Shown piece by piece: positions 1,703-50,513 of a stretch of DNA of 64,000 nucleotides. The notes below the pieces were generated by a model. The model had not been told where the DNA came from. It saw only the letters and a list, made by a program, of their open reading frames with translations, and ran no database searches. How positions within the stretch are numbered: the stretch's first letter is position 1; each line of letters begins with the position of its first letter. Source of the stretch: Pyramidobacter piscolens W5455. Lineage in GTDB: Bacteria; Synergistota; Synergistia; Synergistales; Dethiosulfovibrionaceae. The DNA is taken from contig NZ_ADFP01000121.1 of NCBI RefSeq assembly GCF_000177335.1, positions 1 to 64,000 of the forward strand. The letters are read 5' to 3'. A program made the position numbers and the translations under genes.

Positions 1703-4700
1703 TCACCGTTTGAACGCGGGGTCTTTGCGCGAGGCGGAGAGGTCGGCGTAGGTGTTGAAGGCGACGCTGTCGACGACGCGCCGTCGTTTTTTGTCGTAGA
1801 CGACGATGTTCATGCCCAGCGACTGTGCGGAATACTCCGTGCCGTCGATCCGGACCGACGACTCGGAACCGGCCTCCATTCCCGTGCTGACGAGCCCGAT
1901 CTTCAGCCCCGCGGCGTCGACGGTTGTGTCGATGCGGCCGGGCGTGCATTCTTCGTAGATCTTTTTGCCGCCGTCGCTGACGGCCGCGTAGCTCCAGCGC
2001 CGCTTGCCGGACAGCGACAGGTCGAGCCCCAGCGGCGCGAAGAGCTTGCGGTGCGTTTCCGTCAGGCGGCGCGCGCCTTCGTCGAGCACGGAGATCAGCA
2101 CGACGTAATCGGGATCGGCCAGCCGCCGCAGATAGCGGCAGAAGTCTGTTTCCAGAAAAAGCGGCGTCAGGTCGACGGACTGCACGCGTTTTTGCCCCTG
2201 CGCGTCGATAAATCCGACGTCGGCGCACGGCCCTTGCGCCGTCAGGGCGGAGATCACGCCGTCGAAACCGGCCGACACGGCGCCGTCCAGCGGCGCGGCA
2301 CCCGCGCTTTCTGGACCGCCGATCAGTTTGATTTTGAAGGCCTGCTCCCACGGCGTCTGGAAGTAAAGCCGGCCGCCGGAGCGCGCGACGTATGGCCCGT
2401 CGGGCCATGAGGCGAGAAACGCCCCCTTTTCGATGGGAACGCGATGATCGACGGGGCGGTGGCGCAGTTTGGGCGTTTCGCCGCCGGGATGCCGCGTCGT
2501 CGCGGGCGCGCCCGCGAGCAGCGGCGCCAGTTCGTCCAGCGGTACCGGCGCGGCGCTTGCGGCGCGGTCGATCACTTCGCCGCAGGCGGGATCGAAGACG
2601 ACGAAGTTCGTGCCCTGCTGCGCCCAGGAGTATTCGAGGCCGTTCACGCGGATTGACAGTCGTGCGCGGGTACGCGACTGGGCGGTGGTGGCCTCGTCAT
2701 ACGTGTTGAGGTCGAGGTAAACGCCGCCTTCCTCGCCGTCGAAGTGCAGCGCCGTGCCGGGCTCGCCGCGCTGAAGCGTGAGGATCTGACCGTCCCGCAT
2801 GGCCAGAAGGCCGGGCTCCCGCCCCGGGGCGTTGACGGCGGCGAGGATCAGCGCCTTCGACCGCGACAGCTTGCGCACATAGGCGTAGAAGTCCTGCTCC
2901 TCGCGCAGCGGCGCGCTTTTCGCCGCGGGGAGGAGGCTGAACGGGCGCGCGTTTTCCGCGCCGTCGCGCCGCCACCCCGCTTCCAGATATTCAAAACCGG
3001 CTCCGTCCAACGGCGCGGCGGCCCAGCGGAATTTTTGGTCGGATGCGCGGCGCAGCTCGCGCGGCGTCAGTTCGACGGTCTGCCCGCCGCGGCGGGCGCG
3101 CAAAATCAGTTCTTTTGCGGACAGGCGCCCGTCCAGCAGCTTGCAGAAGAGCGTGTCCCGATGGCAATAGACTTCCATCGCGCCCGCGAAGGCCACGCAG
3201 GGCGCGCCGCCGTCCAGCACGGTGCGTTCGTCCTGCGGCACGCCGCCGTTCCCGGCTGCGTACGGCCACTGCGCCGCCGTCCGCAGCGGCGTTTCATGGG
3301 CGGCGACCGGCCGGTCTTTTCCGTCGACGAATTCCAGCCGCAGGCGGTACGTTCCTTCCGGCGGCACGGGGATCGACGCCTGCAGGTATTCGGCGTCCTG
3401 CGGCGGCAGGTTGCGCGGCAGCGGGAACGTGCGCGCATATTCCGGCATGTTGCGGCCGTCGGCGGCGCAGACCGACGCGCGGATCCGCAGCGGCGCATCT
3501 CCCGCGCTGGACAGCAGGCTGTCGCTTGAATTGAAGACCGCGCACTGAAAATCGCCGCTGCCGCCGGTCCTCATAAACAGTTCCGGTTCGGAAAAGACGA
3601 TCTTCGGCGCGCCCTTGGAAAAGTCGTTCGTTTTCGGCGGCGCGTGCCGGGCGAAAGAATCTTTGGGACGCTTGAAGAACCGGTTGTAGCGCGCCGACGT
3701 CTTGCCCAGTTCGGCGACGTAAGCCTTTTCGCCCAGTTCCTCGATCATCGTCGGGCACGCGCTGAACAGCGACGTGCCGATGCCGAAACGGCGCCCGGGA
3801 AGATTTGCGCCGATGGCTTCGAGAATCGTCGGCGCGAAATCCGGCGCGCTGAAAAGCCGTTCGCCCTCGCGCTCCGGGCGCGGGATCGCGTTGATGAACA
3901 GGTTGAGCACGGCGCGTCCGTCCCCCAGCGGACGCCCGGCGATGGCGTCGCCCATCCAGAGATGGTCGCCGAGAACGACGATCGTCAGGTCGCGGGCGAA
4001 CGGCTGCGCCTGTACCCAGTCGATGAACTCGCCCATCATCAGGCTGCTGGCGCGGATCACGTCGCGAAAGTCGTGCCAGCGCGTTTGTGGGCGGACGTCG
4101 GGGTCGAGAAAGTAGTATGTGTCCGGCCCGTGCGTGTCGAGCGTCTCGACGAAAAAAGCGTACGGCGCGCCCGAAGCGGCGCGCAGCGCCAGATCTTCCT
4201 TGAGCCGCTCGTAGAGATAGCGGTCGCGCAGTCCCCAGCCGTTGCCGCGGTTCTGTTCCACGTCGGAGCGGTATTGGCTGAACCAGCGCAGATCCTTGAC
4301 GACGGGGCGCTCCGCGTGCGTGCGGATCAGATTTTCGATGCCGCCGAACGAACAATCGCTGGAGAACATAAACTCCAGCGCGTAACCGCTGCGCTCCAGC
4401 ACCTCGAAGATACTCAGCGCGCCGGGCAAAAACGACTCGTAGTCGCCGTAGTCGTTGTGGCCGATCGGCAGTAGCAGCGGCAGCCCGAAGTCCGAGGCCG
4501 TCACGCCCGCCGTCGTCCAGGTCGTGCCGCGCACCTGGCGGAAGCCCGTGAAATGGAGATGGTCCTTCTGCAGCCGCGCCAGCTCCGGCAGCAGCGGCGC
4601 GCCCATGACCACGGCGTCGTTGAAGGTGTCCTCGATCGACTCCATGTGGATCACCAGCAGATTGCGCTTGGCGCCGGGGAACGACCAGCGCGTGTCCGCC

Positions 4701-5104
4701 GGTTCGGGCACGGCGTCGAACAGCGTTGTGCTCTGGAACTGACGCAGTACGAACCCGGCCACGCCGACGCTCTGTTCCGCGTACAGCGCGAAACCCGCCA
4801 GCGCCAGCGCCGCGACGAGGCCCGCGCCGCGCCGGCCGCGCCGCAGGCAGAAACGGCAGAACAGCCCGTACAGAATCACGACTGCCGCCGCGCCCGCGCC
4901 CGCGGCGAAAATGAGACGGCGCAGATGGGCGTCGACGCCGCCCGTCAGCGGCACGTCCAGATGAAACAGGATCTGTTCCATCGACACCGGCCCCCAGACC
5001 CGGCGCATCAGCGCCAGAGCCGCCGTTCCCGCCGCCGCGAGAGCGAAGACGGCGGTCAGCGCCGCACCCTTGAAAAAGCGCGCATGATCTTTTATGAACG
5101 ACAT
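1703..5104 (-). CDS. membrane sulfatase-family phosphoglycerol/phosphoethanolamine transferase-like protein with ILEI-like C-terminus
   Basis: 1133 residues from the ATG at 5104, chosen because GAGGAG precedes it; the open frame extends further upstream without support. Three N-terminal membrane helices (about residues 10-33, 60-82, 92-118) precede an extracytoplasmic alkaline-phosphatase/sulfatase fold of the OpgB/LtaS type: HMESIEDTF near 150, GTTWTTAG (likely nucleophile Thr region), VETLDTHGPDTYYF and LGDHLWMGD as metal-binding stretches. About 600 further residues form beta-rich modules; the stretches VNGLEYSWAQQGTNFVVFDP and IDGTEYSAQSLGMNIVVYDK, with LISVLDEGARRLTE between them, look like ILEI/FAM3-type domains. 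Likely role: transfer of a phospho-group from a phospholipid head to an envelope glycan; substrate unknown. It stands alone, convergent with the sigma-factor side and closed by its own terminator. Confidence 0.75.
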   Translation of the reverse strand: MSFIKDHARFFKGAALTAVFALAAAGTAALALMRRVWGPVSMEQILFHLDVPLTGGVDAHLRRLIFAAGAGAAAVVILYGLFCRFCLRRGRRGAGLVAALALAGFALYAEQSVGVAGFVLRQFQSTTLFDAVPEPADTRWSFPGAKRNLLVIHMESIEDTFNDAVVMGAPLLPELARLQKDHLHFTGFRQVRGTTWTTAGVTASDFGLPLLLPIGHNDYGDYESFLPGALSIFEVLERSGYALEFMFSSDCSFGGIENLIRTHAERPVVKDLRWFSQYRSDVEQNRGNGWGLRDRYLYERLKEDLALRAASGAPYAFFVETLDTHGPDTYYFLDPDVRPQTRWHDFRDVIRASSLMMGEFIDWVQAQPFARDLTIVVLGDHLWMGDAIAGRPLGDGRAVLNLFINAIPRPEREGERLFSAPDFAPTILEAIGANLPGRRFGIGTSLFSACPTMIEELGEKAYVAELGKTSARYNRFFKRPKDSFARHAPPKTNDFSKGAPKIVFSEPELFMRTGGSGDFQCAVFNSSDSLLSSAGDAPLRIRASVCAADGRNMPEYARTFPLPRNLPPQDAEYLQASIPVPPEGTYRLRLEFVDGKDRPVAAHETPLRTAAQWPYAAGNGGVPQDERTVLDGGAPCVAFAGAMEVYCHRDTLFCKLLDGRLSAKELILRARRGGQTVELTPRELRRASDQKFRWAAAPLDGAGFEYLEAGWRRDGAENARPFSLLPAAKSAPLREEQDFYAYVRKLSRSKALILAAVNAPGREPGLLAMRDGQILTLQRGEPGTALHFDGEEGGVYLDLNTYDEATTAQSRTRARLSIRVNGLEYSWAQQGTNFVVFDPACGEVIDRAASAAPVPLDELAPLLAGAPATTRHPGGETPKLRHRPVDHRVPIEKGAFLASWPDGPYVARSGGRLYFQTPWEQAFKIKLIGGPESAGAAPLDGAVSAGFDGVISALTAQGPCADVGFIDAQGQKRVQSVDLTPLFLETDFCRYLRRLADPDYVVLISVLDEGARRLTETHRKLFAPLGLDLSLSGKRRWSYAAVSDGGKKIYEECTPGRIDTTVDAAGLKIGLVSTGMEAGSESSVRIDGTEYSAQSLGMNIVVYDKKRRRVVDSVAFNTYADLSASRKDPAFKR

Positions 5105-6850: not shown

Positions 6851-6925
6851 AATTTAATGACGACCAGAAGGTACGCCCATCTTTGGCCGGACGATCTCTA
6901 CGGAATGACGAAATTGTTGGAATAA
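6851..6925 (+). pseudogene. 3' remnant of a second phage integrase gene
   Basis: Codes for the last 25 residues of a tyrosine recombinase: NLMTTRRYAHLWPDDLYGM and the final TKLLE plus stop. It equals the end of the intact integrase at 50350 except for four base changes, one of which gives Trp for Arg. The sequence to its left (6545-6850) is not homologous to integrase and shows no supported gene; one frame across 6780-6870 (ENDIFPVELKSEADTADKS) may be a scrap of another protein. The fragment lies outside the present prophage, on the host side of attL, so it is the leftover of an earlier integration at the same tRNA. Confidence 0.8.
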
Positions 6926-7001
6926 AGCTTGAGTAAAATGTCGTAAAAAATAAAAGGACTTGTCGTAACTGCATTGACAAGTCCTTTGCAATTTGAAAAA
7001 A

Positions 7002-7060
7002 TGGTGCCTAAGGAGGGACTCGAACCCTCACGTGGTTGCCCACGGGGGATTTTGAGTCCC
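7002..7060 (-). pseudogene. tRNA-Leu 3' fragment (attL)
   Basis: Identical to the 3' 59 bases of the intact tRNA-Leu at 50427-50513, including the encoded CCA, T arm, variable arm and anticodon 3' side. It lacks the 5' half, so it cannot give a tRNA. This is the usual duplication left when a phage integrates into a tRNA gene with a crossover near the anticodon loop. Confidence 0.92.
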
Positions 7061-7170
7061 TTTTCGCATTTTTTAGAACAATTTCCACAATAAAAACCTA
7101 AGAATTATTGTTTGCTTTTCAATGTGTTAAAACGACATATCGTATTTTTACAACAAAAAACGCCATATTT

Positions 7171-7212
7171 ACAACAAGGGAGACGCCGGTAATAAGGTAT
7201 CTCCCTTGTTGT
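7171..7212. terminator. hairpin upstream of the RNA polymerase promoter
   Basis: Perfect 13-bp inverted repeat (ACAACAAGGGAGA with 7200-7212), 16-nt loop, followed by TTATCTT, a weak T tract. It could block read-through from the chromosome into the RNA polymerase gene. Just left of it, TTTACAACAA occurs twice, 21 bp apart (7147 and 7168). Confidence 0.55.
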
Positions 7213-7265
7213 TTATCTTAAAAGGCCAACGTATTTCCTGTATTTTGAAGTATCGCATAAAAGCA

Positions 7266-7294
7266 TTGTAATCTATACAAATAGATTCCATAAT
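7266..7294 (+). promoter_or_regulatory. host-type promoter of the phage RNA polymerase gene with palindromic operator
   Basis: TTGTAA (7266-7271) and CATAAT (7289-7294) are 17 bp apart, 36 bp before the RNA polymerase ATG. The spacer is filled by a perfect palindrome, AATCTAT-ACAA-ATAGATT (7270-7287), which overlaps the -35 box. A dimeric repressor bound there would block the only visible promoter of the phage RNA polymerase. Confidence 0.7.
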
Positions 7295-7329
7295 GCTATA
7301 CTTCAATTACAGTTTACAAGGAGGTTAAA

Positions 7330-9936
7330 ATGAATACACATAACGAATTCTTATCACTACAACTTCCAGACGAATACGAAAAAGTTTTGGAAAGAGAAAA
7401 GACAATACGAAATCAACACATTGCCGATATTGAAGACAACAGCCGGAAAGCCTTCGAAGACGGTGTCTGGTCAAAACACAAACCGCTCCGTAGTCTAATG
7501 GCAAGCACGCTCCCCTTTATTACCGACTGTGCGCGCGCTGTCGCGAACAACCTCAAAAATACCGATGGCAAGGCCACCCCGCATAAGAACCATATCTTGA
7601 AATTTAGCAAGGAAGACATTGACGCATACTGTTATATCGCGTTGACGGTCATGCTCGATGAGAGCACTAAAGGGCGCTCTCTCACACATGTTTACGCTGC
7701 GATCGCGAGCGCCTGCGAAGAAGAAGCCCGAATCAATTTCTGGCAAAAAGCCGCGCCGCGTTTTTTTACAGCCGTCGTGAACCGTCAAAAGGAAAACACA
7801 TCCGACCCCTTGTGGATCAAGCTTGGTCTTTCAGTCGCCATGAACCGTTATGCGAACGGCGTTTACGGCGGCAAACCGCACAAGGAGGCGCAGTGGGAAA
7901 AATGGTCTACCAGCTATCGCTACTGGATGGCGTCAACACTGGCAGCCATCGTTTTGAGCAAAACATCTTTATTTGATGTTATCCGTATTCCCTATTCCGG
8001 CAATAAAAACATCTCGGAAACAGGGTACAAACTCATGCCCAGTGCGCAACTACTTCAATGGGTAGGAAACGCCGATGCAGTTCTTGGGCTTAAAGGAGGC
8101 TTTTATTTGCCTTTGCCGATCCCTCCAAGACACTGGACAAACACGCAAAACGGCGGCTACTGGACGGTCTACGGCGGTCAACTCCCACTCGTCAAAAACC
8201 GCAATGAAGCGTATCAGGAAGAAATTCTCAACCAGCCGGAACAGTTCGCCACCGTCTTTGAGGCCGTCAACGCCGCCCAAGACACAGCGTGGCGTATCAA
8301 CCAGCGCGTCTACACCGTTTTAACCGAACTCGTACACGAAGGAAAAGCTGTTGCAGGACTGCCGAGCGCTGACAAACTCCCCCTGCCGAACTGCCCTAAA
8401 TGCGGCGCGAAAATCGTCGAAGGCGTCAAACATGAATGCCTGCAAAGCCCGGAAGTACTCGACAGTTGGAAGGGCCTTGCACGAGCCGTATATCGAAAAA
8501 ACGCCAAGGCCATAGGCCAGAGGCTCCGCCTCGGCATGTCGATGGAAATCGCCGCACTGCTTCTAAACGACGAACGATTCTATTACGTATATCAAACCGA
8601 TTTCAGAGGCCGCCTTTACCCGGTCGGCAATTTAACGCCTCAAGGGACTGACTGGGAAAAAGGCATCTTGGAATTTGCGGACGGCGTCCCATTGGGCGCA
8701 CACGGCGCAAAATGGCTCGCTGTCCACGTCGCTAACTGTTGGGGCAACGACAAAGTAGATTACGACGAGCGCGTTCAATGGGCGAAAGACAACACGCAGT
8801 GGATTCGCGACTGTGCCAACGAACCCCTGATCCACAGAGAGTGGACCGAAGCCGATTCTCCGTTCATGTTCCTCGCCGCCTGCATCGAGTGGGACGGCTA
8901 TTGCAGGGAAGGCGACGGTTACCTGTCCCATACCCCTGTCGGCCTCGACGGCAGCTGTTCAGGAATCCAACACTATTCAGCTATGCTCCGCGACGAAGTG
9001 GGCGCAATCGCGACAAACGTCAAATGCCTCCCCAATCAACATAAAAAGTCCGACATCTACGGCCTTGTCGCCGAAGAGGCCGTCAAACAATTCCGGGAAG
9101 ACGCAACGGGGGCCGACGCAGACAAGGCCAAGTACGCCATGTTCCTTCTCGCCCATAACTTAATGGACCGAAAGATCACCAAACGCGCTGTCATGACACT
9201 CCCTTACGGTTCGACGTTTCAGACCGCCCGCGAGTACGTCTGCGAAGCTCTCAGCGAACGCACGGAAATCGAACAATATGACACCAAAGAAGTAAAAAGC
9301 CTGCTTATGTACGCGGCGACGACCGTTTGGCATGCTATCCCCAAAGTCGTAAAAGGCGCGCGGGAAGGCATGAAGTTCCTCAAGACCGTCGCCAACCTCG
9401 TTGCGAAAGCCAGCACCCCCGTCGCATGGGTAGCGCCGAGCGGTTTCGTCGTGCAGCAAAGTTACTATTTGACCGACATGAAGCGCATCAAGACACGGCT
9501 CCAAGGCAGCATCATCGTCAAAAACAAAATGCCATGTTGGGTAGCTTCGGGAGGTGCGGTTCTGTTGAAGGACAGCCACGATAGCCCTTACATCAACAAA
9601 GCCAAGCAGGTATCGGGGATTGCGCCAAATTTCATCCATTCTCTTGACGCTTCGCACCTGATGTTTTCTGTTTGCGCAGCTAAAAAATCCAGAATAACTT
9701 CTTTCGCTTTAGTTCACGACAGCCTTGGTGTTCATGCCGGTAAAACCGAAGAATTTGCTCAGATTCTCCGTGAACAATTCTGGCAATTATACACAAAACA
9801 CAAACCTCTGGAAGATTTTGTCGAGCATATTAAACCATTGTTAATTTCTGGTGATGAGCGCAAACTCCCCAAAATACCGATGATTAACACATTTTGTCCC
9901 GACGATATTTTGAAAGCCAAGTTTCTGTTTTCGTAA
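7330..9936 (+). CDS. single-subunit DNA-directed RNA polymerase (T7 gp1 family)
   Basis: 868 residues against 883 in T7. It would transcribe the middle and late phage genes from phage promoters. Catalytic landmarks align with T7 in spacing: DGSCSGIQHYSAMLRD with Asp540 (T7 D537), TKRAVMTLPYGST with Lys618 and Tyr626 (T7 K631, Y639), NFIHSLDASHL, and VHDS with His796-Asp797 (T7 H811-D812). YQTDFRGRLYPVG is the T7 DWRGRVYAV stretch. A CxxC...HxxC-like cluster near 355-370 (CPKCGAKIVEGVKHEC) resembles a small zinc site. Start ATG follows AAGGAGG. It is the first phage gene and is driven by a host-type promoter with an operator, so its repression should keep the prophage silent. Confidence 0.97.
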   Translation: MNTHNEFLSLQLPDEYEKVLEREKTIRNQHIADIEDNSRKAFEDGVWSKHKPLRSLMASTLPFITDCARAVANNLKNTDGKATPHKNHILKFSKEDIDAYCYIALTVMLDESTKGRSLTHVYAAIASACEEEARINFWQKAAPRFFTAVVNRQKENTSDPLWIKLGLSVAMNRYANGVYGGKPHKEAQWEKWSTSYRYWMASTLAAIVLSKTSLFDVIRIPYSGNKNISETGYKLMPSAQLLQWVGNADAVLGLKGGFYLPLPIPPRHWTNTQNGGYWTVYGGQLPLVKNRNEAYQEEILNQPEQFATVFEAVNAAQDTAWRINQRVYTVLTELVHEGKAVAGLPSADKLPLPNCPKCGAKIVEGVKHECLQSPEVLDSWKGLARAVYRKNAKAIGQRLRLGMSMEIAALLLNDERFYYVYQTDFRGRLYPVGNLTPQGTDWEKGILEFADGVPLGAHGAKWLAVHVANCWGNDKVDYDERVQWAKDNTQWIRDCANEPLIHREWTEADSPFMFLAACIEWDGYCREGDGYLSHTPVGLDGSCSGIQHYSAMLRDEVGAIATNVKCLPNQHKKSDIYGLVAEEAVKQFREDATGADADKAKYAMFLLAHNLMDRKITKRAVMTLPYGSTFQTAREYVCEALSERTEIEQYDTKEVKSLLMYAATTVWHAIPKVVKGAREGMKFLKTVANLVAKASTPVAWVAPSGFVVQQSYYLTDMKRIKTRLQGSIIVKNKMPCWVASGGAVLLKDSHDSPYINKAKQVSGIAPNFIHSLDASHLMFSVCAAKKSRITSFALVHDSLGVHAGKTEEFAQILREQFWQLYTKHKPLEDFVEHIKPLLISGDERKLPKIPMINTFCPDDILKAKFLFS

Positions 9937-29210: not shown

Positions 29211-29222
29211 GAGGTGAGACGG

Positions 29223-30527
29223 ATAGCAAGCACCCCATACAGCTACGCTATGTATAAGGGCGACGGCGCGAACAAGACGTTCAACGTTTCGTTCCCTTAC
29301 ATATCGAAAGCACACGTACATGCATGCCTTTACAGAGCCAATGCCGAAGACACACCCTTAACGATCGTGGAATGGTTGAGCAACGGCGCATTACGCCTTG
29401 GAACGGCCCCGCCCAAGGACGCTGACGTCAAGATATACCGCGACACGCCCAAAGACCACCCGCTGGTCGATTTCGAGGACGGCAACGTCATCCTCGCCGA
29501 AGACCTCGACCTGAGCGTCATCCAGAATCTTTTCATCACGCAGGAAGCCTACGATTATTTATCCCAGTCGGTAGACCCATACGTCAAGCAGGTCAACGGC
29601 CTCGTCGACGAGTTCAAGGTGACGTACAACGACTTTCTCGGCAAGTTCCAGATCGTCAAAGAATACGCAGCGTTCCTCGAAGACTGTTCGTCTGGAGTGC
29701 CCATCGGCGCGACCGTCATGTTCAAGAAAGGACAGCAGGAACCCGGCTATCTCCTCGCCAATGGCGCGCCGTATGACACGGCGAAGTACCCGTATCTCGC
29801 CGACTGCCTCGGCGCGGCCAACCTGCCCGACATGAGCCACACGCCCGTGCTTATCCCCGGCTGGGCGTGGTATGTCAAGGCGTATCACCGCCCCAACGTC
29901 AGAGGTGACCTCAAACGCTTGCAAATACTCGTCCACCAGCTCCCGTCGGACCAAGCCGCGTACGGCGCGTACAATTCCAGCGAGGACATACTCAACCTCT
30001 ATATACCTCAAGGCATCCAAGGCATTCAGGGCCCCATGGGTCCCACTGGTCCGGCCGGGCCTCAAGGGCCGCAAGGCGAGCAAGGCCCGCGCGGCATTCA
30101 AGGCCCGCAGGGCGAGCAGGGGCTCCGCGGCCCCGAAGGCGCGCAGGGCGTCAAGGGCGATACGGGCGAGCAGGGGCCGAGAGGCTTTCAGGGCGAGCGA
30201 GGCCCTCAAGGCATCGCCGGTCCGCAGGGGCCTACGGGGCTGCAAGGCCCGCGAGGTCCGCAGGGCGAAGTCGGCCCCAGAGGCCCGCAGGGCATCAAAG
30301 GCGACAAGGGCGACCGCGGCGACCCCGGCCCGGAAGGACTGAAAGGCCCCACCGGCGATAAAGGCCCTACCGGCGACGCCCCTGTGGGGCTGTGCTTCGG
30401 GAATTTCCAGTACAACAACGACGGGCACCTGCTGTTTTCCGTTTACGGGCTCGAAGAAGGCAGCAACATCGTCGCCAGCTTCGACCACCGCGGGCACGTG
30501 ATCATGGCGATCACGTCCGACATCTAG
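29223..30527 (+). CDS. tail fibre protein with gp17-like N-terminus, tail-collar-like part and collagen repeats
   Basis: 434 residues from ATA 29223; 437 from GTG 29214. The GTG lies inside GAGGTGA (29211-29217), which is the likely Shine-Dalgarno, so the ATA five bases after it is favoured and would give M-ASTPYSY. Residues to about 150 follow the T7 fibre adaptor ([37 protein letters not shown]) that binds the tail. [20 protein letters not shown] is tail-collar-like. About 40 Gly-x-y triplets (bases 30010-30375) form a collagen-type shaft, then a short C-terminal head ([20 protein letters not shown]). Role: host receptor binding. Confidence 0.88.
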
Positions 30528-30537
30528 GAGGTAACGC

Positions 30538-31527
30538 ATGTCTATTGTCAAAACCATCGATCTCGGCCCCGCGCGGGCCGTCTACAAAGGCGCGTGGGAC
30601 GCAGAGGCCATCTACGAGTACAACAACATGGTGCGCCATCAGGGGAGCCTGTGGTGCTACGTCTCCACCGACGAAATCGCCGGGGACGAACCCCGTCCCT
30701 CTGCGGCCGACGAAACGACTTCCGCTTCCGGGCGCTGGATCGTCGTCGGCGGCACGGGCGAAAAAGGCGACAAGGGCGAACAAGGCATTCAAGGCGTTCC
30801 CGGCGTCAACGGCCTCGACGGCGCGCAAGGCCCCCGCGGCGAAATCGGCCTGACCGGCCCGCAAGGCCCAGCCGGCCCGCAAGGCCCAGCCGGTATCCAG
30901 GGGCCAAGGGGCACCGCTCCCGACCACGAGTGGAACGGGGCGAAACTGCGCTGGAAGAACCCTGACGGCACGTGGGCCGCATGGGCTGACCTCAGAGGCC
31001 CCCAAGGCGTCACCGGCCCCGAAGGCCCCGTCGGCGTACAGGGCCCCGTAGGCCCCAAAGGTAATACCGGGCCGACCGGACCGCAGGGCCCCAAGGGGGA
31101 TACTGGCGCGACCGGACCCGCCGGCCCGAAGGGCCCCAAGGGGGATACTGGCGCAACCGGAGCCGCCGCCACCATCAAGATCGGCACCGTATCCACCGGA
31201 GCCGCGGGCAGCACCGCCGCGGTCAGCAACTCCGGCAACACCCAGAACGCCGTGCTGAATTTCACCATTCCCCGCGGCGCGACCGGGGCAAAAGGCACGC
31301 AGGGCCCAAAGGGCGCTACGGGGGCGCAAGGGCCTGTCGGCGTCTTCCGCATCGGTTCGGTGACGACGCTTGCCCCCGGAGCCAACGCTACCGTAGCGCT
31401 TTCCGGAAACGGCACAAACGGTTCTCCGTACTACTTCGCGTTCGGCATTCCCCGCGGCGCGACAGGAGTTTCGAGCGGCTCGGGCTGCACGGGTTACCAC
31501 GAGTCATGTAATTGTGATGACCATTAA
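30538..31527 (+). CDS. second collagen-like fibre protein with Cys-rich C-terminal tail
   Basis: 329 residues, ATG after AGGAGG. The N-terminal part (YKGAWDAEAIYEYNNMVRHQ, WCYVSTDEIAGDEP) resembles small carbohydrate-binding or adaptor modules found in fibre proteins. Collagen-type triplets occur in two runs (bases 30754-30915 and 31000-31160) split by ApDHEWNGAKLRWKNPDG. Then come two similar beta modules, each ending in IPRGATG (IGTVSTGAAGSTAAVSNSG and IGSVTTLAPGANATVALSG). The protein ends GSGCTGYHESCNCDDH, three cysteines in 9 residues, unlike the rest of the protein. It may sit at the tip of the fibre; the tail is a possible target for the radical SAM enzyme encoded downstream. Confidence 0.85.
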   Translation: MSIVKTIDLGPARAVYKGAWDAEAIYEYNNMVRHQGSLWCYVSTDEIAGDEPRPSAADETTSASGRWIVVGGTGEKGDKGEQGIQGVPGVNGLDGAQGPRGEIGLTGPQGPAGPQGPAGIQGPRGTAPDHEWNGAKLRWKNPDGTWAAWADLRGPQGVTGPEGPVGVQGPVGPKGNTGPTGPQGPKGDTGATGPAGPKGPKGDTGATGAAATIKIGTVSTGAAGSTAAVSNSGNTQNAVLNFTIPRGATGAKGTQGPKGATGAQGPVGVFRIGSVTTLAPGANATVALSGNGTNGSPYYFAFGIPRGATGVSSGSGCTGYHESCNCDDH

Positions 31528-31550
31528 AAGCACAGAGGAGCGTTGGAAAA

Positions 31551-31829
31551 ATGAGATGTGAAGTCCGACTTTCAAGTTACACCGACTGGGTGGGCGAAAC
31601 AGTACGTTGCCTGCGCGACGGACAGAGCGTCGCCATTATCCCCGACGACGCGGAAACGCCGAATTGGGGGTACCGAGAAATTCTCAACCTTGGATTGGGA
31701 CTGTACCATTTGGATCGCTCGTGCCCTGAATGGCGTAACAGCGTCTCTTTCGGTGAGATCAAGTGCGACGAAGAGGCGGTTTTAAACCTGTACCGTTCGA
31801 TGACAGGAGGTGCCGCCCATGGCGCTTAG
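31551..31829 (+). CDS. hypothetical protein of the fibre island
   Basis: 92 residues, ATG after AGAGGAGCG. Pattern SYTDWVGETVRCLRDGQSVA then NLGLGLYHLDRSCPEWRNSV. Not recognised. Overlaps the next gene by 11 bp. Being between fibre and radical SAM genes it could be a substrate, adaptor or chaperone of either. Confidence 0.65.
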   Translation: MRCEVRLSSYTDWVGETVRCLRDGQSVAIIPDDAETPNWGYREILNLGLGLYHLDRSCPEWRNSVSFGEIKCDEEAVLNLYRSMTGGAAHGA

Positions 31830-32625
31830 TTTTATTGAACTCTTGAACCGCAACAATTACCCCAAGACCATTGCAAAATTCGAGAACATCGAAGCATACC
31901 AGAGCGGCGAGTACACGGCCGTTCTGTGTGAAGGCACCATCGAACCCGACGTCCTTACGCACGACGGCCAGTTCGTCTACGACAAGATCAATACCGCCGT
32001 CGCGCACTACCACAACGGCGTCTACGTCAGCCTGTACTACTGGGGGCTGGGGATCAACGCCGAGTATCTCGACACCCCCATTGAGGGCAAGGTCGTCTAC
32101 GCGCCGCTTCTCGGCTCCGGCCGCTACCTCTACACAGGCGCGAGGAAATACATCGTCGCAGACGCCCCCCTGCCCGCGGAACAGCCCGCGAACTACGGAC
32201 TGCTTTACAAACGCGTCGTCTTCGGCGCGGAAAAGACGCTCGCCGACCTCTACAAAAACGCTTTCAAATACCGATACATGCGCGACGGTGACGCCTACAT
32301 GGCGCTCAACGAAGTGGGCGCGGTCGAGAACATGCTCGAAGTCGTGAAAGAGACGGTGACATTGCGCGAGGTCGGTTCGATCTATTCGCGCCTCGACAGC
32401 CTGAACCTGCTGCTCTGCTACGTGCTCCAACGCATCCAGACGCTCCTCCCCGAGAACGAAAGGACGCTGCTGGCCGACGCCCTCGCGTCTTCTGCGCCTC
32501 TCGACGACGTCGCCCTCGCCGGGCACGAGCTGAAAGAGGTTCGCGACATTGCGCTGGCGGCGAGACAGGGCGTCGACGCGCTGCGGGCGTACACAGTCTA
32601 CAACGGCGCGCATCTCGTCGTATAA
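31819..32625 (+). CDS. hypothetical virion-linked protein of the fibre island
   Basis: 268 residues; ATG 31819 is seven bases after AGGAGGT. Beta-rich first half with many Tyr and Gly (YWGLGINAEYLDTPIEGKVV, LLGSGRYLYTGARKYIV), helical second half (SRLDSLNLLLCYVLQRIQTL). No known family. The stop is directly followed by the ATG of the radical SAM gene (TAAATG), which suggests translation in one unit. Confidence 0.7.
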   Translation: MALSFIELLNRNNYPKTIAKFENIEAYQSGEYTAVLCEGTIEPDVLTHDGQFVYDKINTAVAHYHNGVYVSLYYWGLGINAEYLDTPIEGKVVYAPLLGSGRYLYTGARKYIVADAPLPAEQPANYGLLYKRVVFGAEKTLADLYKNAFKYRYMRDGDAYMALNEVGAVENMLEVVKETVTLREVGSIYSRLDSLNLLLCYVLQRIQTLLPENERTLLADALASSAPLDDVALAGHELKEVRDIALAARQGVDALRAYTVYNGAHLVV

Positions 32626-33603
32626 ATGCGCACCTATATCGTCCTCACGAACTCGGACTGTAACCTGGGGTGCTCCTACTGCTGCGAGTATCGTAAATGT
32701 ACGGCGGTGTTCGACGTTGAAAATAATATCGACTATCTTTCACGGCGTCTGGAAGAGGACGCTCCGCAGGCGGGCGAAAAGGTGCTGCTGTACTGCATCG
32801 GCGGGGAATCGCTGCTCCATCCGCAAAAACTCGACGCCTTCTTTTCGCGCGTGAAAAAGCGCGTTGACCCGCGGTTTGCCATCGACACGAGATTCATGAT
32901 CCAGACCAACGGCACGTTGGTGGCGCACTCCGAGCAGTCCGCGTTTTTGGAGAAGTGGCGGGACGTCGTCCGCCTCGGCTTTTCCATCGACGGCATGAAA
33001 TACAAGCACGACCGCGACCGCTGCGGGAGTTTCGACGCCTGCATCAAGGGGCTGGAACACGCGAAGGCGCTCCTTTCGCCCGAACAGATCACGATCAAGG
33101 GCACGTTCACCGTCGAAGACATTCCCCGCTTCGCCGAAAACGTGAAGTACCTTTTGAGCCTCGGCGTGTCCAGCGTCAAGTCTAACTTCGACACCGGTGC
33201 GGTCATACCCGAATGTCTCACGCTGCTTCTGGCCGAGCAGATGTGCTCCGTCGTGGACTGGATCGCGGAAACGAAATGCCCAACGTGGTGGTCGGAGTTG
33301 AACGACCCCAGCGCGTTCGCCGATCTCGGCTGCGGCGTTGGGGACGGCAGCCGGTGCCTTGGACTGGACGGGCACGAGTACCCGTGCTTCGTTTTCGCCT
33401 CGAACAAAAACCGCCGCGCCCCCGTTTACAAGGAAGCCGACGAGTGCGCGACATGCGTTTTGAAGTGCTGCTGCGTGCCCTGCGCCGCCGCCATGGTGGC
33501 CGGAGGGCACGCCAAGCGCCCGTGGTGTGCCTATACGTGGGCGCGGACGATAACGAGAATGTACGCGAAATTGAGAAAGGTGGAAAAACCATGGCATACG
33601 TAA
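32626..33603 (+). CDS. radical SAM protein with SPASM-like C-terminal cysteine cluster
   Basis: 325 residues. It should cleave S-adenosylmethionine at a 4Fe-4S cluster to start radical chemistry on a protein or peptide. Cluster cysteines Cys12, Cys16, Cys19 form the CxxxCxxC motif in SDCNLGCSYC; the SAM-binding GGE motif is IGGESLLHP near residue 65. LGFSIDGMKYKHDRDR fits the barrel of SPASM enzymes. The C-terminus has a SPASM-type set: LGCGVGDGSRCLGLDGHEYP followed by Cys, then CATCVLKCCCVPC, able to hold extra clusters. Peptide-modifying enzymes (anSME, PqqE, sactionine synthases) share this layout. It lies in the phage fibre block, same strand, no gaps. Substrate unknown; the Cys-rich fibre tail and the next gene product are candidates. 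Confidence 0.88.
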   Translation: MRTYIVLTNSDCNLGCSYCCEYRKCTAVFDVENNIDYLSRRLEEDAPQAGEKVLLYCIGGESLLHPQKLDAFFSRVKKRVDPRFAIDTRFMIQTNGTLVAHSEQSAFLEKWRDVVRLGFSIDGMKYKHDRDRCGSFDACIKGLEHAKALLSPEQITIKGTFTVEDIPRFAENVKYLLSLGVSSVKSNFDTGAVIPECLTLLLAEQMCSVVDWIAETKCPTWWSELNDPSAFADLGCGVGDGSRCLGLDGHEYPCFVFASNKNRRAPVYKEADECATCVLKCCCVPCAAAMVAGGHAKRPWCAYTWARTITRMYAKLRKVEKPWHT

Positions 33604-34277
33604 CCTACAAGGACAGCTACGGCAACGACATCAAAGCCTACGCGCGCGTCAAGGTGGCGGGGCACGAAGTTGAAAATAACTCTAGGGAATGGCTGTTCGA
33701 CATTTTTCTTGGCATGGACGAGCTGACAGGGACAGGCGCGCCCTACCGCTGCGCTTCGGGGTATTACCCCGTCTGCGTGCGCATCAACTCCGCGGGCGAA
33801 CTCGACCTGCCCGCCGCGCGGCTGGAAGCCCTGAAAACGCAGCGCATCCAGCTGATCGAAAGCCACGCGGCGCGACAAGCGACAGAGATCGACGAGATGC
33901 TTCTGATGCTTACCCACGGTCCCGACACTTCCCCCGAAGTAACCGCCAGCGCCGTCGCGTCGCTGCGCTCGCACCTGAACGACGGCCCCCAGACGCCCGA
34001 GGAACAGGCCGCGCTCGTCAATCTGGTTGCAAACTACAACCAGCTCTCCGGCACAACCCATCCCCAGAGCTGCGGGATGAACCTCTTTATTTTCATGCTA
34101 AATCTAATCGATTTCCAACGTGCCCAGATCGCCGCCGACAAAGCGCTGCACATAGCCGCCGTGCAGGCCGCGACGACGGAAGAGGAAGTGAACGCCGTAC
34201 CTTATATCTGGACAGCCCACGACACCCCCGTCTTCGACCCCGCCGTGACGTACACTTACACGCCGCAGGAGCCGTAA
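33591..34277 (+). CDS. hypothetical protein directly after the radical SAM gene
   Basis: 228 residues; ATG 33591 after GAAAGGTGG, overlapping the radical SAM gene by 13 bp. N-terminal beta part (YVTYKDSYGNDIKAYARVKV), a Cys-containing turn (GAPYRCASGYYPVCVRIN), a helical middle (RLEALKTQRIQLIESHAARQ), and a Thr/Pro tail (PAVTYTYTPQEP). It may be a fibre chaperone, a virion protein or the radical SAM substrate. No family recognised. Confidence 0.65.
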   Translation: MAYVTYKDSYGNDIKAYARVKVAGHEVENNSREWLFDIFLGMDELTGTGAPYRCASGYYPVCVRINSAGELDLPAARLEALKTQRIQLIESHAARQATEIDEMLLMLTHGPDTSPEVTASAVASLRSHLNDGPQTPEEQAALVNLVANYNQLSGTTHPQSCGMNLFIFMLNLIDFQRAQIAADKALHIAAVQAATTEEEVNAVPYIWTAHDTPVFDPAVTYTYTPQEP

Positions 34278-34298
34278 AACAAAAGGAGTACGCAATGT

Positions 34299-49339: not shown

Positions 49340-50350
49340 ATGAACAGAGACTTGCCCAAGGGCATTAGAAAGGTAGGCAACCGATATAAATGGGAAATTA
49401 TGTACAACGGCGTCAGGCGTGCTGGCTATACCGTCACGCTGGAAGAAGCTATACAGCTAAGGAAGGATATACCGAAGATGTTGAGCGCACGCGCCAGCGA
49501 CACCAGCCCTAAATGTTTGGGCGGCGCGATCGCCCACCTGCTGGCAACCGACTGGTCGGAAGACCAGTGTAAAAGCCACGCGTGGTTTGTCAGAAACACG
49601 AACCTCATCATGCGGTATTTCAACCCGGTCATGCTGCTGTCCGAAATCACAGCAGAAAAGATTGATGAATACGTACTCCATTTGAAAAACGTCGAACGCA
49701 ACTCAGGCGGTACCATCAACAGGAAACTGTCTGCGTTGAGCAAAATCCTGTCGTGGGGAGCAGAGAAAGGATATATCGCCAAAAAGCCCAAAGTCCCGCG
49801 ACTAAAAGAAAGCGTTGGGAGGCTCCGCTTCTTGAGTGAAGCCGAAGAAATCCGTGTCCTCAACTATTTCAAAGACAACGGTTATCGTGTTGAATACCTG
49901 TCATGTATCGTGTTGGTCGATACCGGCATCCGAACGGGGGAGTTGTTCAAGGCCTCTGTGAAAGACGTAGATTGGAACGCCGGCGATCATGGCATTATCA
50001 TTCTGCGCGACACGAAGAACAACGACACGCGTTCCGTTCCGCTGACCAAGCGCGCGGCTGACGCGCTGAAAGAACTAAGCGGACTATCACCGAATCACGA
50101 ACAGTTTGTGCCGAAAGAAGACTGGCTCCGTTCAGCGTGGCTGAAAATGCGTGAAACGCTTGGCTACGCTGACGATAAATTCATGGTGCCTCATATCCTG
50201 CGCCACACCTGCGCCAGCCGCCTCGTTCAGAAAGGTGCCCCGTTGTATTCAGTTGCGAAATGGCTTGGACATCGGAATTTAATGACGACCAGAAGGTATG
50301 CTCATCTCCGGCCGGACGATCTCTACGGAATGACGAAATTGTTGGAATAA
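49340..50350 (+). CDS. tyrosine recombinase (phage integrase)
   Basis: 336 residues. N-terminal DNA-binding part (GIRKVGNRYKWEIMYNGVRR), a core-binding domain at about 60-160, and the catalytic domain with Arg198 (DTGIRTGEL), His285-xx-Arg288 (HILRHTCASRL), His311 (WLGHRN) and nucleophile Tyr320 (RRYAHL). Start ATG after AAAAAGGAGC. It inserts and excises the phage at tRNA-Leu; its gene ends 77 bp before the tRNA, so it travels with attP. Its 3' end is duplicated at 6851. Confidence 0.97.
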   Translation: MNRDLPKGIRKVGNRYKWEIMYNGVRRAGYTVTLEEAIQLRKDIPKMLSARASDTSPKCLGGAIAHLLATDWSEDQCKSHAWFVRNTNLIMRYFNPVMLLSEITAEKIDEYVLHLKNVERNSGGTINRKLSALSKILSWGAEKGYIAKKPKVPRLKESVGRLRFLSEAEEIRVLNYFKDNGYRVEYLSCIVLVDTGIRTGELFKASVKDVDWNAGDHGIIILRDTKNNDTRSVPLTKRAADALKELSGLSPNHEQFVPKEDWLRSAWLKMRETLGYADDKFMVPHILRHTCASRLVQKGAPLYSVAKWLGHRNLMTTRRYAHLRPDDLYGMTKLLE

Positions 50351-50485
50351 AGCTTGAGTAAAATGTCGTAAAAAATAAAAGGACTTGTCGTAACTGCATT
50401 GACAAGTCCTTTGCAATTTGAAAAAATGGTGCCTAAGGAGGGACTCGAACCCTCACGTGGTTGCCCACGGGGGATTTTGAGTCCC
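50276..50485. repeat. right copy of 210-bp direct repeat (attR with int 3' end)
   Basis: Holds the last 75 bp of the integrase gene, a terminator hairpin (AAAGGACTTGTC with GACAAGTCCTTT, 50378-50412) and the 3' 59 bases of tRNA-Leu. See the copy at 6851-7060. Confidence 0.9.
50378..50412. terminator. bidirectional terminator between integrase and tRNA-Leu
   Basis: 12-bp perfect arms with an 11-nt loop; A-rich left and TTT-rich right sides allow action on both the rightward integrase and the leftward tRNA transcripts. The same hairpin is at 6953-6987. Confidence 0.8.
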
Positions 50486-50513
50486 CTGCGTCTACCGATT
50501 CCGCCACTCAGGC
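50427..50513 (-). tRNA. tRNA-Leu (anticodon CAA)
   Basis: 87 nt including encoded CCA. Acceptor GCCTGAG pairs with CTTAGGC (one G-T pair). The anticodon stem GGGGA/TCCCC holds the loop CTCAAAA, anticodon CAA for UUG. A long variable arm (CGTGGGCAACCACG) marks a class II tRNA; the T arm GAGGGTTCGAGTCCCTC is normal. The 3' part was supplied by the phage attP at integration, so the tRNA stays functional. Confidence 0.97.

Follow-up and report, generated by a model that had tools for sequence, protein, structure and literature searches.

What is a radical SAM/SPASM enzyme doing among the tail-fibre genes of a phage? Its gene lies in a prophage within the window (the whole 64,000-nucleotide stretch of Pyramidobacter piscolens DNA analysed here). 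The prophage is flanked by a 210-bp direct repeat, 98% identical between its copies (6851-7060 and 50276-50485), of which the right one overlaps a tRNA-Leu gene (50427-50513); the two copies are likely the attachment sites. The sequence-only reading had taken the phage to be T7-like, and the match of Phage_T7_tail (PF03906) to the first of its fibres agrees with this. At the other end of the genes of interest, the lysis neighbour at 34299 matches a holin family weakly (PF16083, 26.6 bits), under the cut-off of 28.4. The features on which the argument turns are the following:

29214..30527, + strand: tail fibre 1, with a T7-type virion-attachment domain (PF03906, 3e-27) and collagen repeats (PF01391); the shared block begins within it
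29718..34278, + strand: apparently exchangeable block of fibre and enzyme genes, 77.6% identical in DNA to a prophage of genome G005; other structural genes unmatched
30538..31527, + strand: second, collagen-like tail fibre (fibre 2), Cys-tailed at the C terminus; candidate substrate; PHROG tail-fibre matches, 84% identical to the G005 fibre
31486..31524, + strand: the Cys tail, CTGYHESCNCDDH (C317, C324, C326), proposed modification site; none on the homologous G094 and G143 fibres
31551..31829, + strand: 92-aa protein, no family match; 80% identical to its G005 counterpart, only in the window and G005
31819..32625, + strand: partner, read from the ATG at 31819; proposed substrate-recognition factor or fibre-maturation chaperone; new family linked to phage radical SAM/SPASM genes
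32626..33603, + strand: radical SAM/SPASM enzyme, 325 aa, ATG start, intact ORF
33591..34277, + strand: 228-aa protein, no family match, last gene of the shared block; 84% identical to its G005 counterpart; the shared DNA ends at 34278

The enzyme and its nearest relatives

The match to Pfam Radical_SAM (PF04055; E 5.4e-11, 43.4 bits against a cut-off of 29.5) places the enzyme in the radical SAM (rSAM) superfamily. The CxxxCxxC and GGE motifs and the SPASM-like set of C-terminal cysteines that had been read from the sequence are all present, and none varies among the 18 phage and bacterial relatives aligned: C12-x3-C16-x2-C19, G59-G60-E61, and C236, C254, C274, C277, C283, C286, and C301. The seven-cysteine pattern of SPASM domains runs CX9-15GX4C ... 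CX2CX5CX3C ... C; the enzyme follows it (C236-x12-G249-x4-C254, C274-x2-C277-x5-C283-x2-C286, C301), with two residues between C283 and C286 where the pattern has three. The gapless packing of the gene likewise stands: it starts directly after the TAA of the preceding gene and overlaps the next one by 13 bases.

Within the superfamily, the nearest profiles are those of maturases of Cys-rich peptides. The best NCBIfam model is TIGR04115, the CXXX-repeat maturase (an equivalog domain; 72.6 bits against a cut-off of 350), alongside NF047865, the PapB ranthipeptide maturase (an equivalog; 62.6 bits against 340); with such scores the enzyme is a member of neither family. An AlphaFold2 model (pLDDT 86, pTM 0.86) finds its best PDB match in CteB, a peptide maturase that forms thioethers (5why; E 1.8e-14, TM 0.76), and CteB also comes first (5wgg, 2.9e-35) when the subfamily profile is compared with PDB sequences. 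With the ranthipeptide maturases (CteB/SCIFF, PapB, TIGR04115), the enzyme shares the rSAM core, the SPASM cysteines, the best profile and fold matches, and the linkage to a Cys-rich protein. Unlike them, it falls far below the family cut-offs, has no N-terminal RRE (its core motif begins at residue 12), has the end of a fibre as its putative substrate, and is accompanied by a new partner of ~270 residues in place of the known helpers. Its superfamily is an ordinary one; its proposed use is unusual. A separate recognition protein has a precedent in PqqE (PMC8326336), and QhpD, the maturase of the quinohemoprotein amine dehydrogenase subunit, forms thioethers between Cys and Asp or Glu within a protein, not a secreted peptide (PMC8326336). 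QhpD resembles the proposed system as an rSAM enzyme that acts on a protein, but its substrate is a subunit of a bacterial enzyme, not a virion protein, and its profile matches the window enzyme weakly (27.8 of 453 bits). Sulfatase-maturase, PQQ, and mycofactocin roles, for which the profile matches are weaker or absent, were dropped.

A shared block and a fibre tail

Does the enzyme belong with the fibre genes, or does it only adjoin them? Among 188 genomes of the phylum, G005, which belongs to the same genus, is alone in encoding a close relative of the enzyme (50%) amid a matching set of neighbours: a Cys-tailed fibre, the 92-aa protein (80%), the partner (75%), and the 228-aa protein (84%). 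A 43.8-kb IMG/VR record holds the same enzyme at 100% identity, and when the window enzyme, A1, and the 92-aa protein are scanned against IMG/VR for close relatives, they return the same prophage only. The DNA common to the window and G005 prophages is one block, which runs from position 29718 inside fibre 1, after the virion-attachment domain, to the stop codon of the 228-aa gene; the portal, capsid, tube, terminase, and internal virion proteins of the window phage find no match in the G005 region. Because this block is all that the two prophages share and their other structural genes do not match, the fibre, the enzyme, and their companions appear to travel jointly as a module. For the 92- and 228-aa proteins, the searches made give no relatives beyond the window prophage and its G005 sister; four cysteines of the 92-aa protein (C3, C20, C58, and C72) are conserved.

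Fibre 2 ends in GCTGYHESCNCDDH, and its final 13 residues contain three of its four cysteines (hypergeometric p 1.9e-4), in keeping with the earlier remark that the fibre has a Cys-rich tail unlike the rest of it. A CxC in the last 13 residues is found in none of 276 other phage proteins encoded more than 4 kb from an rSAM gene. The sister fibre ends in GYTGCSCDEA; with three cysteines in the window tail and two in that of the sister, both fall short of the 10-31 usual in other members. Both contain C-[NS]-C-D-[DE], in which the first cysteine of the pair fits C-x3-[DE]. In G094 and G143, two genomes of the phylum in which the enzyme profile finds nothing at 1e-12 and the only controls of this kind, homologous collagen-like fibre segments occur in proteins without a Cys tail. 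A search of the window, the rest of the contig, and the G005 prophage for other Cys-repeat ORFs gave antisense or unrelated matches, and none in the prophage beyond the fibre tail. Short tails are seen in other phages: proteins of 147-148 aa in L058 (7475-7921) and L081 (7451-7894), which overlap the start of an rSAM gene, end in CSCSCC and CSCGCC.

How have the two blocks diverged? The enzyme is their most diverged gene (dS 1.50, against 0.25-0.94 for the others) and, between the two prophages, it is under purifying selection (dN 0.48, dS 1.50). In the sister fibres, the tail is the most diverged part, and the 38 residues that precede it are identical. Such correlated divergence of enzyme and tail is expected of an enzyme-substrate pair and suggests one here, with the limit that two sequences cannot prove it. 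Compared with L003 and L020, the enzyme gene has 58% DNA identity and a dS of 1.5 and its block neighbours have 75-88%, as if the enzyme gene had been separately replaced.

The partner and the recurring gene order

The 268-aa protein encoded just before the enzyme had been passed over; comparison with its homologues indicates that it should be added as a conserved partner and core component. It has no Pfam match. A phmmer search finds homologues in L033 (1.8e-18), L035 (1.8e-8), and L038 (1.9e-7); the partner profile adds L036 and three jumbo-phage loci, among them SPN3US_0165 (2e-14), and reaches L112, a prophage of Desulfoluna butyratoxydans (1.8e-23). The homologues span some seven lineages of phages: the window and G005 prophages, both podoviral; phages with sheath- or J-type tails; and SPN3US-like jumbo phages. 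A tblastn search of phages with the L033 partner gave nothing, and the aligned partner sequences differ too much to be scanned for by a pattern. When the predicted structure of the partner (pLDDT 75) is compared with the PDB, nothing convincing is matched (best E 0.6), and by this search the fold is not RRE-like; in a library of viral structures its sole match is a jumbo-phage protein. Without the enzyme, the partner was never found in sets of 188 and 292 genomes, both searched without the enzyme as an anchor; it is on these sets that the test rests, since the viral partner loci were located via the enzyme. Among the 292 genomes, chosen as relatives of L112 (Desulfoluna), L112 itself is the only one with the partner. 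About ten SPFM records, including L280 (Salmonella phage SPFM7), give broken, low-identity partner matches where sister records give 99%; these records look aberrant.

What accompanies the partner elsewhere? It stands beside rSAM genes in L033, L035, L036, L038, L112, the SPN3US-like jumbo phages, and G005, and at 25 of 25 partner loci outside the window (several of them near-identical phages, about seven lineages in all) a Cys-tailed protein is encoded just upstream of the partner and an rSAM/SPASM gene. This slot is held in L033 by a collagen-like fibre with 31 cysteines, clustered with genes for the tail sheath and the baseplate; in L036 by a tail-collar fibre (PHROG 1e-54); in L035 by a tail fibre (PHROG 3e-32); and in L112 by a 257-aa protein among tail-type genes, while in L038 the cluster comes after a J-type tail gene. 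The window fibre occupies the same slot. The order Cys-tailed fibre, partner, rSAM recurs in unrelated phages. What would mark a fibre-maturation module, a gene set tied to fibre genes in unrelated phages, is found in the 25 of 25 loci, in the PHROG matches, and in the block border inside fibre 1.

Jumbo phages present a variant of this arrangement. SPN3US_0163 and SPN3US_0164, annotated as "radical SAM superfamily", belong to the same rSAM clade as the window enzyme and adjoin a member of the partner family (SPN3US_0165), Cys-repeat proteins, and tail genes; the SPN3US-like set differs from that of the window in having two rSAM genes, small Cys-repeat proteins, and no long fibre. Two of the Cys-repeat proteins have ~130 aa and a third has 68-69 aa with only 2-4 cysteines, so short tails occur there too. 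In L210 (4967-5173), L215 (4969-5178), and L252 (4991-5200), the third ORF is a short paralogue that resembles the other Cys-repeat proteins in its N-terminal part; in SPN3US itself (L012, 5097-5489), a 130-aa Cys-repeat ORF that adjoins the rSAM genes is unannotated in the public record. Just upstream of the set lies gp168, a tail protein that resembles gp131 of phiKZ, a protein of the baseplate periphery (PMC5105663). No mention of gp163-gp167 occurs in the SPN3US main texts searched.

The partner-linked rSAM enzymes, that of the window included, form one clade (support 100/99, nine rows) in a tree that leaves out the fused, only partly aligned L035 enzyme; the window and G005 enzymes sit on a long branch. 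In L035, two rSAM units are fused in one 686-aa ORF (7137-9197), and in L206 a short rSAM gene (4074-4789) is apparently broken in two. The rSAM gene is carried by 61 jumbo phage records. Tail fibres and endolysins make up most of the named neighbours of phage rSAM genes. A Cys-repeat ORF lies within 3 kb on the same strand at 65 of 80 phage loci and at 64 of 80 genome loci with related rSAM genes; 81 (phage) and 87 (genome) such ORFs were counted near rSAM genes against 11 and 13 more than 4 kb away. Outside the partner clade, L048, L056, L057, L065, L066, L084, and others encode long Cys-repeat proteins (~30-90 cysteines) next to rSAM genes, without the partner; in some of these the repeats are N-terminal, and they appear to represent a larger, uncharted family.

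What the enzyme may modify

We consider it probable, on the strength of gene order and sequence comparison, that the cassette serves fibre maturation: the enzyme, with its partner, would modify the C-terminal Cys tail that forms the tip of the collagen-like fibre, most likely by a radical-made thioether. Among the targets proposed by the sequence-only reading, the fibre tip is the one to which the recurring gene order in unrelated phages and the tail-free fibres of the two enzyme-free genomes point; the 92- and 228-aa proteins, confined to the window and its sister, lose ground. The partner (31819-32625) may act as a recognition or presentation factor for the enzyme (32626-33603), which would cross-link or otherwise modify the fibre cysteines post-translationally. 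By analogy to the nearest characterised relatives, the reaction would most likely join a Cys sulphur to a neighbouring residue, in a ranthipeptide-like thioether. PapB links Cys to Asp/Glu (PMC9413430), and the C-x3-[DE] present in both sister tails would suit such a bond; this match is suggestive only, the tails of other members being rich in Gly/Ser/Thr. A tip stapled in this way may hold under reducing, anaerobic conditions, where disulphides would not, and could serve receptor binding or fibre stability.

Could the cassette instead produce a small modified peptide, a phage RiPP such as a bacteriocin or a signal, with the Cys tail or another peptide cut off after modification? Enzymes of this type classically act on small Cys-repeat peptides, and chromosomal rSAMs of a sister group, from the order of the host (L021, L022, L023, and L025), stand beside Cys-repeat peptides of 65-103 aa; Cys-repeat proteins of 68-155 aa are also present in jumbo phages. 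This possibility, which the sequence-only reading had named as the other option, is nonetheless unlikely: the prophage has no separate Cys-repeat peptide, no protease or exporter gene is recognised in the block, and in L033, L035, L036, L038, and L112 the Cys region ends a larger, fibre-like protein. It is less probable still that the fibre tail is coincidental and the enzyme acts on the 92-aa, the 228-aa, or a host protein. Both small genes do lie within the block common to the two prophages, with 80-84% conservation, but neither is found beyond these two, and elsewhere the enzyme and its partner occur without them, next to Cys-tailed proteins.

The tail might also work by itself. Cys knots end the helices of some collagens, and a tail as short as that of the window fibre, without a CXXX repeat, could form an interchain disulphide or a metal knot that ends the triple helix; the enzyme, placed on its long branch, would then be a leftover missing an old Cys-repeat substrate. 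Against this, the enzyme gene shows purifying selection between the two prophages and keeps every cluster cysteine, and the collagen-like fibres of the two enzyme-free genomes do without the tail; we regard this explanation as very improbable. Modification of the fibre tip by the enzyme and its partner remains our preferred reading.

Has anything like it been described? To our knowledge, radical SAM enzymes mature no structural protein of any virion, and no such case was found in the literature searched; a search of the literature on phage radical SAM enzymes, tail fibres, ranthipeptides, and SPN3US likewise found no description of such a system, nor any paper that assigns a role to SPN3US_0163/0164. 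In Campylobacter phages CP220 and CPt10, several radical SAM genes lie in an interchangeable module described as metabolic; a Cys-tailed fibre or a partner is not reported in the consulted part of that account, and the comparison is by description only (PMC2853527).

We lean towards a broader view as well, in which a widespread, so far undescribed class of phages carries radical-SAM machines that post-translationally cross-link the Cys-rich C-terminal tips of their tail fibres and, probably, further proteins of the virion. Virion maturation of this form would have a dedicated partner protein and an exchangeable gene module. If so, phages of anaerobes and enterobacterial jumbo phages would build chemically stapled fibre tips, which would matter for the stability of the fibres and the recognition of hosts. 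The many "radical SAM" and Cys-repeat genes that are now annotated as metabolic or hypothetical would also acquire a function. The SPN3US-like phages, which are cultivated, make the idea directly testable.
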